The notes beneath the pieces are model-generated. The model was not told the origin of the DNA, searched no databases, and saw only the letters and a program-made list of their open reading frames with translations. Below are positions 1-33,932 of a stretch of DNA of 33,932 bases, one piece after another (position 1 is the first letter of the stretch; the number at the start of each line of letters is the position of its first letter). Source of the DNA: Candidatus Gastranaerophilales bacterium. Its GTDB lineage: Bacteria; Cyanobacteriota; Vampirovibrionia; Gastranaerophilales; Gastranaerophilaceae. A program made the position numbers and the translations under genes. The DNA lies in assembly GCA_944325075.1 (NCBI GenBank), contig CALUYU010000025.1, forward strand, positions 1-33,932. The letters are read 5' to 3'.

Positions 1-98
1 TGTGAGAGATAGCACCGGTACAATTCAAACAATTATTTTAAATTGTATTTGAATGCGAGCGGTCGGATAAGCAAGCCGGGATTAAGTAGCGCAGTTTG

Positions 99-140
99 AC
101 TCTGCCGAACAAAAACAATTGAGTATTGTTTTTGTGAGAG
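99..140 (+). repeat. D-loop hairpin element, Pro-array copy 1
   Basis: The ends are ACTCTGCCGAAC and GTGAGAG. They enclose a 9-bp stem (CAAAAACAA/TTGTTTTTG) with a 7-nt loop, TTGAGTA. The outer CTCT and AGAG can pair around an internal loop. The element sits exactly where the D-loop of the tRNA-Pro 5' fragment would continue. An identical copy lies at 231-272, and the same element recurs on the minus strand near the right end of the window with a slightly different but fully paired stem. Confidence 0.85.
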
Positions 141-230
141 ATAGCACCGGTACAATTCAAACAATTATTTTAAATTGTATTTGAATGCGAGCGGTCGGAT
201 AAGCAAGCCATGGCAAAGTAGCGCAGTTTG

Positions 231-272
231 ACTCTGCCGAACAAAAACAATTGAGTATTGTTTTTGTGAGAG
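231..272 (+). repeat. D-loop hairpin element, Pro-array copy 2
   Basis: Second copy, identical to the one at 99-140. It lies between a GTAGCGCAGTTTG fragment and GTAGCAC. The next unit downstream is the intact tRNA-Pro, whose D-loop has no insertion. Confidence 0.85.
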
Positions 273-317
273 GTAGCACTGGTGCGCTTCAAACAACTTA
301 CTCTTAAATTTCTATCT

Positions 318-391
318 CGGAATGTAGCGCAGTTTGGTAGCGCACCGTGTTCGGGTCGCGGGGGTCGCAGGTTCAAATCCTGTCATTCCGA
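318..391 (+). tRNA. tRNA-Pro (anticodon CGG)
   Basis: A full 74-nt cloverleaf can be drawn. The acceptor stem is CGGAATG/CATTCCG with discriminator A. The D-stem is GCGC/GCGC with loop AGTTTGGTA. The anticodon stem is CCGTG/CGCGG with loop TTCGGGT, giving anticodon CGG. The T-arm is GCAGG-TTCAAAT-CCTGT. The 3' CCA is not encoded, since the gene is followed by TTTTTTAATG, so a CCA-adding enzyme is required. The last 19 bases overlap the 3' end of the convergent cca gene. The upstream tandem array carries copies of its 5' D-arm. Confidence 0.93.
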
Positions 392-1818
392 TTTTTTAAT
401 GCAAAATTTTTAATAAACTCAATGGCCTGCTCTTTAGTCATAACGTCACCGTTTAATTGAGCTTCATGTAAAGCTTTTAAAATATTCCCAAGCATTGGCC
501 CCTGCTTAATATTAAGAATATCAATAACCTCATTTCCATCAAGAAGTTTTGGCAACGGCTTCAACTCTTCAATGGAATTAAAGTAGAGCGCAAGCAGGCG
601 ATCAAGATTATTGAGATTGTGAGCGATAATCTCATCAGTAATAAGCTCCCCTCTGGCAGATAATCTATCAGCTTTAGCAAGAATAATATTATCAATAACG
701 TTGTCACCAAGCTTCCTGAGATAGCGCATCATCGCTTTTTCATTAACATTTGGATCCTGCATGAGGCAGGAAGGATAAATATGGTTTTTAATCATCTCTG
801 AAATATAGCCAATCTGTTTGTTTGAACAAGAAAGATCTTTTAAAATCGGCTTAACAAGTTTTGCCCCGACATCATCGTGCTTAATAAAGCGGTGACGCCC
901 GGTATCTTTGTCAATAGTCCAGGTAGAAAACTTTCCGATATCATGCAAAAAACCGGCAAATTTTAAATGCGCCAGACGTGAAAATCCACCAAAATCAATT
1001 CTGTTAAGATGAGTTTGTATTAACTCATCAGCTTCATCGTACAAAATTTGAATCTGATTAACAGTTTCAATACTGTGATGTAAAAGATCAAGATGGTGAT
1101 GTGAATTAGGCGGAACCTGTTTTAATTCAAGAACAACCGGAAAAATTTCCTCAAGCAGCCAAGTTTTATTCATATTCAAAAGAGCTTTTGCAGAATATTT
1201 TCCGTCAAAAAGTTTCATAAGTTCATATAGTATCCGTTCTTTGGCGGGCCTTTTAATCAAACCGGAGTACTTGCAAACTGCGTTAATAGTTTCGGGACTA
1301 AGCTCAAAACCCAATGCGGCCTGAAATCTGTAGACTCTTAACAGTCTTAGCGGATCATCAACAAAGTTATTTTCATCAATATAATCAAGATTTTTGTTTT
1401 TAATATCAGCAATGCCGCCGCATAAGTCAATGACCTCGCCGGATCTAATATTAACTGCAATTGAATTAATAGTTAAATCACGACGCATTAAGTCTCTTTC
1501 AAGGGAATTTTCAATAGGATTGGTAATATCAATAATTTCGGGATTATGCTTGGAAAGACCATCTTTCAGCACAATTCTATAAATCTTATTTTCTTCATCA
1601 AGAGGAACAAAAGCAGAATTAAATAATTCATGAACCTTTAGTGCAAATTCTCTGGCATCCATTCCAACAATAATCAGATCTCTATCCAAAGGACTTTTGC
1701 CCATATAATAGTCCCTAACAGTCCCGCCAACAGCATAAATATCCTTATCAGAAAATTGAGCGGCAATTCGGGAAAGAATTTTATCAGATTTAATTTTTGA
1801 AAGAATTGTAGTATTCAT
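373..1818 (-). CDS. cca: CCA tRNA nucleotidyltransferase / poly(A) polymerase family, HD-domain type
   Basis: A 481-aa class II nucleotidyltransferase. It is expected to add or repair the 3' CCA of tRNAs, or possibly one part of it, since some bacteria split the activity between two enzymes. The GG-x-VRD motif is at residues 31-36 and the metal-binding D-R-D at about 45-47. The motif RRDLTINSIA, near residue 113, is typical of the head/neck region. A C-terminal HD domain has FLHDIGK near residue 290, as in bacterial CCA/phosphohydrolase forms. The start overlaps the end of rsmE by 29 bp, so the two are probably co-transcribed. The stop lies within the opposing tRNA-Pro gene, whose transcript would itself be a substrate because no CCA is encoded. 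The family call is firm; CC- versus A-adding specificity cannot be settled here. Confidence 0.93.
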   Translation of the reverse strand: MNTTILSKIKSDKILSRIAAQFSDKDIYAVGGTVRDYYMGKSPLDRDLIIVGMDAREFALKVHELFNSAFVPLDEENKIYRIVLKDGLSKHNPEIIDITNPIENSLERDLMRRDLTINSIAVNIRSGEVIDLCGGIADIKNKNLDYIDENNFVDDPLRLLRVYRFQAALGFELSPETINAVCKYSGLIKRPAKERILYELMKLFDGKYSAKALLNMNKTWLLEEIFPVVLELKQVPPNSHHHLDLLHHSIETVNQIQILYDEADELIQTHLNRIDFGGFSRLAHLKFAGFLHDIGKFSTWTIDKDTGRHRFIKHDDVGAKLVKPILKDLSCSNKQIGYISEMIKNHIYPSCLMQDPNVNEKAMMRYLRKLGDNVIDNIILAKADRLSARGELITDEIIAHNLNNLDRLLALYFNSIEELKPLPKLLDGNEVIDILNIKQGPMLGNILKALHEAQLNGDVMTKEQAIEFIKNFALKNRNDRI

Positions 1819-33556: not shown

Positions 33557-33638
33557 TGGTGGGCATGAAGAGATTCGAACTCCCACGCGTTAGCACTAGT
33601 TCCTAAGACTAGCGTGTCTACCATTCCACCACATGCCC
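33557..33638 (-). tRNA. tRNA-Leu (anticodon UAG)
   Basis: Read on the minus strand: acceptor stem GGGCATG/CATGCCC, discriminator A and an encoded CCA (33557-33559). The D-arm is GTG..CAC with GG at 18/19. The anticodon stem is CTAGT/ACTAG with loop CTTAGGA (anticodon TAG). The variable arm is 11-12 nt and the T-arm has loop TTCGAAT. The long variable arm confirms a class II tRNA. The encoded CCA contrasts with tRNA-Pro at the other end of the window. Its upstream side carries an array of copies of its own 5' part. Confidence 0.92.
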
Positions 33639-33684
33639 ACATATTCGATTGTCAAATCTTTCAGATTTGAGGCGTGTCTACCAC

Positions 33685-33724
33685 CTCTCACAAAACGATA
33701 TTCAATCGTTTTGTTCGGCAGAGT
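33685..33724 (-). repeat. D-loop hairpin element, Leu-array copy 1
   Basis: In minus-strand sense the ends are ACTCTGCCGAAC and GTGAGAG, with an 8-bp stem CAAAACGA/TCGTTTTG. The loop is TTGAATA here and TTGAGTA in the other two Leu copies. Those copies lie at 33782-33821 and 33879-33918. Relative to the Pro-array copies, one A-T pair is missing and another is replaced by G-C, so pairing is preserved. Confidence 0.85.
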
Positions 33725-33781
33725 ACCACATGCCCACATATTCGATTGTCAAATCTTCCAGATTTGAGGCGTGTCTACCAC

Positions 33782-33821
33782 CTCTCACAAAACGATACTC
33801 AATCGTTTTGTTCGGCAGAGT
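33782..33821 (-). repeat. D-loop hairpin element, Leu-array copy 2
   Basis: Same 40-nt element as at 33685-33724 but with loop TTGAGTA. It interrupts the D-loop of the second tRNA-Leu 5' fragment. Confidence 0.85.
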
Positions 33822-33878
33822 ACCACATGCCCACATATTCGATTGTCAAATCTTTCAGATTTGAGGCGTGTCTACCAC

Positions 33879-33918
33879 CTCTCACAAAACGATACTCAAT
33901 CGTTTTGTTCGGCAGAGT
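33879..33918 (-). repeat. D-loop hairpin element, Leu-array copy 3
   Basis: Same element as the copy at 33782-33821, followed by the start of a further tRNA-Leu 5' fragment at the window edge. Confidence 0.85.
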
Positions 33919-33932
33919 ACCACATGCCCACA

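Follow-up and report, generated by a model that had tools for sequence, protein, structure and literature searches.

Arrays of tRNA end fragments and a conserved hairpin module beside tRNA genes of Gastranaerophilales, with a proposal that they are miniature insertion units

The stretch of DNA analysed here, referred to as the window, comprises 33,932 nucleotides and corresponds to contig C25 in the draft genome (G000; 2.26 Mb in 107 contigs) of a Candidatus Gastranaerophilales bacterium. Its left end (positions 1 to 316) carries 2.3 copies of a 132-bp unit, located on the strand and on the 5' side of a tRNA-Pro(CGG) gene, and this array runs off the contig. TRF places it at 1-310 with a period of 132, 2.3 copies and 92% matches. 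Each unit contains 13 nt of the tRNA-Pro D-arm followed by a hairpin of about 42 nt, ACTCTGCCGAACAAAAACAATTGAGTATTGTTTTTGTGAGAG; the 13-mer GTAGCGCAGTTTG begins at 86, at 218 and, within the intact gene, at 324. The features of this end are the following:

1-132, plus strand: array unit 1, outermost in the contig, starting inside a hairpin (TRF period 132; 127/132 identical to unit 2)
133-264, plus strand: array unit 2 (TRF)
265-316, plus strand: partial last unit, diverging, which leads into the intact tRNA (sequence, TRF)
86-98, plus strand: displaced tRNA-Pro D-arm start GTAGCGCAGTTTG (exact match to 324-336)
218-230, plus strand: displaced tRNA-Pro D-arm start GTAGCGCAGTTTG (exact match to 324-336)
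99-141, plus strand: class-1 hairpin module (covariance model R1, 49.8 bits)
231-273, plus strand: class-1 hairpin module (covariance model R1, 56.8 bits)
317-392, plus strand: intact tRNA-Pro(CGG) (ARAGORN 317-392; Rfam RF00005 318-391, 61.2 bits)

A first-pass annotation had described this layout of 132-bp units with a 13-nt D-arm start and a hairpin, the last unit grading into the tRNA, and TRF, ARAGORN, Rfam and the covariance model all confirmed it; the array runs into the tRNA gene, on its strand and 5' side as had been stated. At the Pro-CGG array a dihydrouridine synthase (Dus) gene lies upstream and a CCA-adding-enzyme-like gene downstream, both of them tRNA-acting (L002; window 373-1818, minus strand).

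A second array, absent from that annotation as are the 3'-side arrays of other loci, occupies the right end of the window (33639-33932, minus strand), where units of 97 bp precede a tRNA-Leu(TAG) gene. Each displaced tRNA-Leu 5' end, GGGCATGTGGT, is followed by a hairpin of the same kind as in the Pro-CGG array:

33639-33932, minus strand: array on the 5' side of tRNA-Leu(TAG), running off the contig (TRF 33628-33932, period 97, 3.1 copies, 98%)
33919-33929, minus strand: displaced tRNA-Leu 5' end GGGCATGTGGT (sequence match)
33878-33918, minus strand: class-1 hairpin module (R1, 62.8 bits)
33822-33832, minus strand: displaced tRNA-Leu 5' end GGGCATGTGGT (sequence match)
33781-33821, minus strand: class-1 hairpin module (R1, 62.8 bits)
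33725-33735, minus strand: displaced tRNA-Leu 5' end GGGCATGTGGT (sequence match)
33684-33724, minus strand: class-1 hairpin module (R1, 61.7 bits)
33557-33638, minus strand: intact tRNA-Leu(TAG) (ARAGORN; genome-wide RF00005, 58.6 bits)

Elsewhere in the same genome, the end of contig C2 also carries a Pro-CGG array unit (77 bp identical to the window array) and is the partner of this array, and contig C64 starts within a hairpin with a Leu-like fragment. Several arrays being situated at contig ends, an assembly artefact, which had been named as a way in which the first description could fail, has to be considered. Against it, arrays flanked by unique sequence at either end lie inside contigs of many independent assemblies, and the unit length differs from one tRNA to another. 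This highly improbable explanation is thereby refuted for the phenomenon as such, the copy number in the window excepted.

Synteny upstream of the Pro-CGG array is conserved within the genus, of which five genomes give BLAST matches to the flanks of the array. In G012 the site is empty: the Dus gene (identified by PF01207), a short spacer and an intact tRNA-Pro follow each other with no array. In G002, a similar spacer is followed by TCGGAATGTAGC and a hairpin, TCGGAATGTAGCGCAGCTTG and a different hairpin, and then the tRNA, while G006 has one fragment and then two nested hairpins. These two genomes carry one or two units, inserted after nucleotide 11 or nucleotide 17 of the tRNA, and the leader adjoining the Dus gene precedes the outermost fragment. 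Since the site is empty in G012 and differently occupied in G002 and G006, insertion points, modules and numbers vary between congeners at one locus. Which of these states is ancestral we infer; G012 belongs to a different species of the genus rather than being a sister strain, and it may have lost an array.

The hairpin has the general form ACTCTGCCGA-stem-GAGAGG. In an alignment of 30 variants, CTCTGCCGA and GAGAGG are invariant and the stem is variable. The inner stem covaries, with all eight of its pairs changed on both sides and a covariation score of 0.320; shuffling gave 0.106, and slid versions did not exceed 0.062. The GA/GA bases of the internal loop are invariant (30/30) and the bulge reads as four nucleotides, TGCC; a kink-turn likewise has tandem GA/GA pairs, but they follow a bulge of three nucleotides. 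A search against Rfam gave nothing but tRNA at or above the gathering scores.

A search of 84,980 species with the exact hairpin pattern gave at least 100 stretches; the matches listed are nearly all from Gastranaerophilales or gut bins and include a few chance hits in GC-rich genomes. With the covariance model, 32 of the 34 genomes examined from the window's family proved to contain the hairpin (1 to 46 copies each), as did four genomes belonging to two further families of this order. Within the family, G016 has 46 copies and G019 has none. Among 194 genomes drawn from the phylum, the hairpin was present in 81 of the 85 belonging to the Gastranaerophilales family and in none of the 109 others. 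Phages and plasmids were rejected as carriers: a blastn search of them with the window array gave no match, and the strict hairpin pattern matched once among 2.9 million viral contigs (L446, 3448-3492, minus strand), in a sequence which may be host DNA. Besides L446, a looser pattern gave only chance hits in the viral contigs.

The window's own genome has 17 matches to the covariance model. Twelve of them are in the Pro-CGG, Pro-TGG, Leu-TAG and Ile-GAT arrays, broken-off array ends included; three are on contig C90 behind 5' end copies of Leu-GAG type (read by eye), which makes 15 of 17 in tRNA arrays or in tRNA-matching arrays at contig ends, and the remaining two are elsewhere, on contigs C22 and C36. 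Because 12 of 17 hairpins belong to arrays that abut a tRNA gene, or that are sequence-paired with an array abutting one (binomial P about 4e-19), an association with tRNA genes by chance is excluded. For 39 of the 59 hairpin clusters sampled in other genomes, a tRNA is found on the expected side no more than 400 bp away, and several of the others are cut by a contig end while a tRNA fragment is still visible. The possibility that the element would be found mostly away from tRNA genes, envisaged in the first-pass annotation, is therefore not borne out, with the qualification that dispersed copies are common in some genomes and dominate in some, such as G016 and G031. The hairpin is also present in REP-like palindromes away from tRNAs. 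As for protein families recurring beside hairpins, there are only pilin-like and HTH proteins. In four loci (L143, L116, L125 and L115), open frames continue through hairpin modules that precede type IV pilin-like N-termini.

Comparison of the tRNA genes revealed a common geometry. From the outer tRNA end inward, a unit consists of a tRNA end fragment, the module, filler and a leader or terminator, followed by the next fragment or by the intact tRNA. Units measure about 85-260 bp, are uniform in size and mostly non-coding. On the 5' side, the fragments end mostly after nucleotide 11 or 12 of the tRNA, or near nucleotides 17-20; for Ile they end at nucleotide 26 and the hairpin is located in the anticodon arm. 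On the 3' side (Leu-CAA, Arg-CCT, Gln, Phe, Glu and Met), the hairpin is located in the T-arm and the units end in the 3' strand of the T-arm plus the acceptor. From both sides the hairpin points toward the tRNA, and it is therefore on opposite strands at the 5' and at the 3' side. Other modules, classed by eye, occupy comparable positions. Hairpins of GACCC or GACTCC type are also held by D-arms, and two more families, with the cores GGC-GA-stem-GA-GCC and GGCAGA...GTTTAACGCC, break the T-loop between GGTTC and GAGTCC on the 3' side. A tRNA-Leu(GAG)-like gene at L134 received no ARAGORN call; a module replaces its T-arm and two 3'-end copies lie downstream. The flanks of the outermost and innermost fragments are unrelated beyond the tRNA end in many loci and identical in others. 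In several 3' loci, terminator-like hairpins are found behind the tRNA and behind the fragment alike.

Such arrays could be functional RNA, the pre-tRNA 5' leader with its half-tRNA structures serving as decoys, attenuators or processing signals. The invariant GA/GA internal-loop bases and covarying stem, which recall a kink-turn, would suit this explanation, as would the native leader or promoter-like sequence upstream of 5' arrays. The boxA-like motif TTGAMAAYTWAATA (at most two mismatches) is commoner in leaders with 5' arrays (42 of 89, for example L227 and L086) than in leaders without (11 of 44). The earlier suggestion that the array would form part of the precursor leader if co-transcribed is plausible for 5' arrays, given the native leader outside the outermost Pro-CGG unit and a promoter-like site before the Pro-TGG array, although the number of such sites is not above chance. 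The 3' units argue against decoy half-tRNAs or a processing device, two further roles that had been put forward: they follow the terminator-like hairpin of the tRNA itself, there is hardly any space for a promoter, and the hairpin of the units is antisense to the tRNA. Moreover, insertion points, hairpins and their very presence differ among congeners, and no Rfam family matches. Pairing of the fragment with the sequence after the hairpin (P1) was convincing in single loci, before the control over 120 units, in which its mean was 12.6 versus 12.1 with fragments of other tRNAs; pairing in 3' units was likewise no better than control. A role as RNA is accordingly quite unlikely in our judgement.

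The configuration of displaced fragments was examined by a census, in which 1 kb on each side of the tRNAs was searched for 11-mers of each tRNA end. It covered all or nearly all tRNAs of G012 and G000, with the window's Pro and Leu left out. G012 has a 5' copy upstream of 2 of its 41 tRNAs and a 3' copy downstream of 14 (16/41 in total), and G000 has a 5' copy upstream of 5 of its 37 tRNAs and a 3' copy downstream of 6 (11/37 in total). Copies on the wrong side (5' downstream or 3' upstream) were seen in neither genome. A displaced end whose side and orientation are both correct is the mark by which tRNA islands are recognised (PMC4383910), and over the two genomes it was found at 27 tRNAs with no wrong-side case. 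In G017, which has few hairpins, 16 tRNAs showed no displaced copies of tRNA ends. Far copies of tRNA ends, sought for gene-bearing units, were few.

These counts bear on another explanation, namely tandem duplication of tRNA genes with their flanks and decay to end fragments, together with a selfish REP-like hairpin settled in free loops and expansion by slippage. The near identity of the units of one locus, the duplication of leaders or terminators together with the fragment at some loci, and the presence of the hairpin in palindromes unrelated to tRNAs would all be expected in this case; G000 also has half-tRNA copies that lack the hairpin, at Met, Arg-CCT and Lys. Decay after duplication should, however, also produce remnants on the other side, 5' ones downstream of the tRNA and 3' ones upstream, and the two-genome census revealed none. 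Nor does decay alone explain two insertion points in the same gene among congeners, and in many loci (though not in those where the flanks are identical) an unrelated outer flank stands beside an almost perfect fragment. Duplication followed by decay, with a loop-seeking hairpin, would account for much of the pattern but is in our view rather doubtful.

We consider it somewhat probable that the arrays consist of miniature insertion units, non-coding for the most part, which act at the DNA level, target tRNA genes and rebuild each gene. Such a unit would enter an arm of a tRNA gene, either from the 5' side, in the D-arm or anticodon arm, or from the 3' side, in the T-arm. The cut-off end fragment would be left beside the conserved structured module of the unit, with the old leader or terminator. 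At its other end the unit would bring in that tRNA end anew, complete with a leader or terminator of its own, and the gene would be rebuilt in this way. Repeated insertion combined with unequal exchange or slippage would then produce tandem arrays. The units would move as units, and the insertion step would take place at the DNA level, because the orientation of the module follows the gene end rather than the transcript and 3' units lie behind terminator-like hairpins. Growth of the arrays by unequal exchange is suggested by the near identity of the units; tandem duplication alone can suffice for identical copies within an array. Neither circles nor excision nor polymorphism between strains were seen. 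The idea of a mobile element targeting the D-loop, found in the first-pass annotation, comes close to this reading, and was too narrow in its target: the hairpin also occurs in the anticodon arm (Ile), in T-arms and in palindromes away from tRNAs.

Cargo genes were seen at four loci. At tRNA-Asp of G000 (contig C48, L346), a Fic-family gene comes after a unit, and beyond the gene there are a module and a second displaced 3' end, the latter at a distance of 1.7 kb. G012 (contig C13, L374) also has a Fic gene at tRNA-Asp, enclosed by the tRNA and a displaced 3' end some 1.1 kb off, so that Fic-family genes occupy this position in two congeneric species. At L132, a gene for a WapI-like immunity protein is located between 3'-end copies of tRNA-Leu(GAG), at about 634-1057 of the stretch from tRNA to fragment. 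Finally, the C-terminal part of an integrase and a Fic gene separate tRNA-Ile of G004 (contig C14, L349) from a displaced 3' end of greater length, directly after which comes a mini-unit; this is the remnant of a true, conventional island beside a mini-unit. At tRNA-Thr(CGT) of G000 (contig C3, L276), a third 3' unit lies about 840 bp away and the gap holds a very small ORF, type I toxin-like by eye. The remnant in G004 is what would be expected if the units were ordinary tRNA genomic islands whose bodies have been deleted and whose attachment sites remain. This is very unlikely, since one module serves many different tRNAs, which is not expected of one integrase, the units are uniform and small, and every deletion would need to stop at the same module.

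Regarding the enzyme, Y1 transposase was rejected as the mover: in these draft genomes PF01797 is missing from the hairpin-rich G004, G020, G024 and G031 and present in some hairpin-poor ones. The integron integrase profile TIGR02249 was over its cut-off in none of 38 genomes, the window's genome among them. G016, which with 46 hairpins is the richest genome checked by integrase profile, has only two PF00589 tyrosine recombinase genes, presumably XerC and XerD, and dosage of tyrosine integrases was discarded as an explanation. It follows from these two genes that a host recombinase or other machinery moves the units, or that many of them are relics; host Xer action, lost helpers or ordinary recombination may spread them. 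A more specific version, which we regard as unlikely, is a cassette system landing in tRNA genes, in which the folded modules would act as recombination sites for a recombinase, perhaps host Xer, that enters and rebuilds many tRNAs. The units would be mostly empty and sometimes toxin- or immunity-bearing, and the system would be integron-like without an integron integrase.

Should the proposal of miniature insertion units hold, inserts have entered roughly one in three tRNA genes in two whole genomes from a gut family that is widespread. These inserts would be too short for island finders, with their 2-kb minimum, and would be passed over by repeat finders as well, and they would account for many contigs of these genomes ending at tRNA genes. 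The question would then be how one short module enters many tRNA genes, leaving an intact gene each time, without an enzyme of its own.

Several known systems share part of this organisation. Rickettsia palindromic elements are also short palindromic repeats in genes, some of them open in frame, as are the modules upstream of pilin-like sequences here; by their description, they measure about 150 bp, reside in coding genes and have no rebuilt tRNA with a displaced end (PMC10969869). With the GTAG- and CGTC-tagged repeats of REP/RAYT systems (PMC3733652), the units share short hairpins and, in some genomes, dispersed copies, but they differ in having no matching transposase distribution and in their association with tRNAs. 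Integron cassette arrays likewise have a folded site beside each unit, one anchor point and an occasional single toxin or immunity cargo gene. Here there is no integron integrase, the anchor is a tRNA gene and most units are geneless. By eye, the module ends do not look like the attC boxes RYYYAAC/GTTRRRY. With regard to MITE features, the palindrome formed by the module is imperfect, the block that is duplicated is none other than the tRNA end, and no parent transposon was found. The double-hairpin elements of fungal mitochondria resemble the units as short, mobile-looking hairpins near RNA genes, but are organellar. A search of open-access papers, with subscription papers and preprints outside its scope, found no description of such a layout. 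The closest likeness is to tRNA islands of the Islander type, in which the tRNA is rebuilt beside the insert, the displaced end fragment is found across the insert from it (upstream for 5' fragments, downstream for 3' fragments), breakpoints fall in the tRNA arms and cargo is occasional (PMC4383910). Those islands measure 2-200 kb, the finder discarding anything below 2 kb, and only a minority of them (159 of 3919) have 5' fragments (PMC4383910), which are common in the units. The units, at 85-260 bp, contain no integrase and have no room for one; they possess a conserved structured module by the fragment, one module family serving many tRNAs, and form tandem, near-identical arrays. Set apart from tRNA islands by size and integrase, from integrons by IntI and from REP/RAYT by the transposase, the units work like a tRNA island in miniature.
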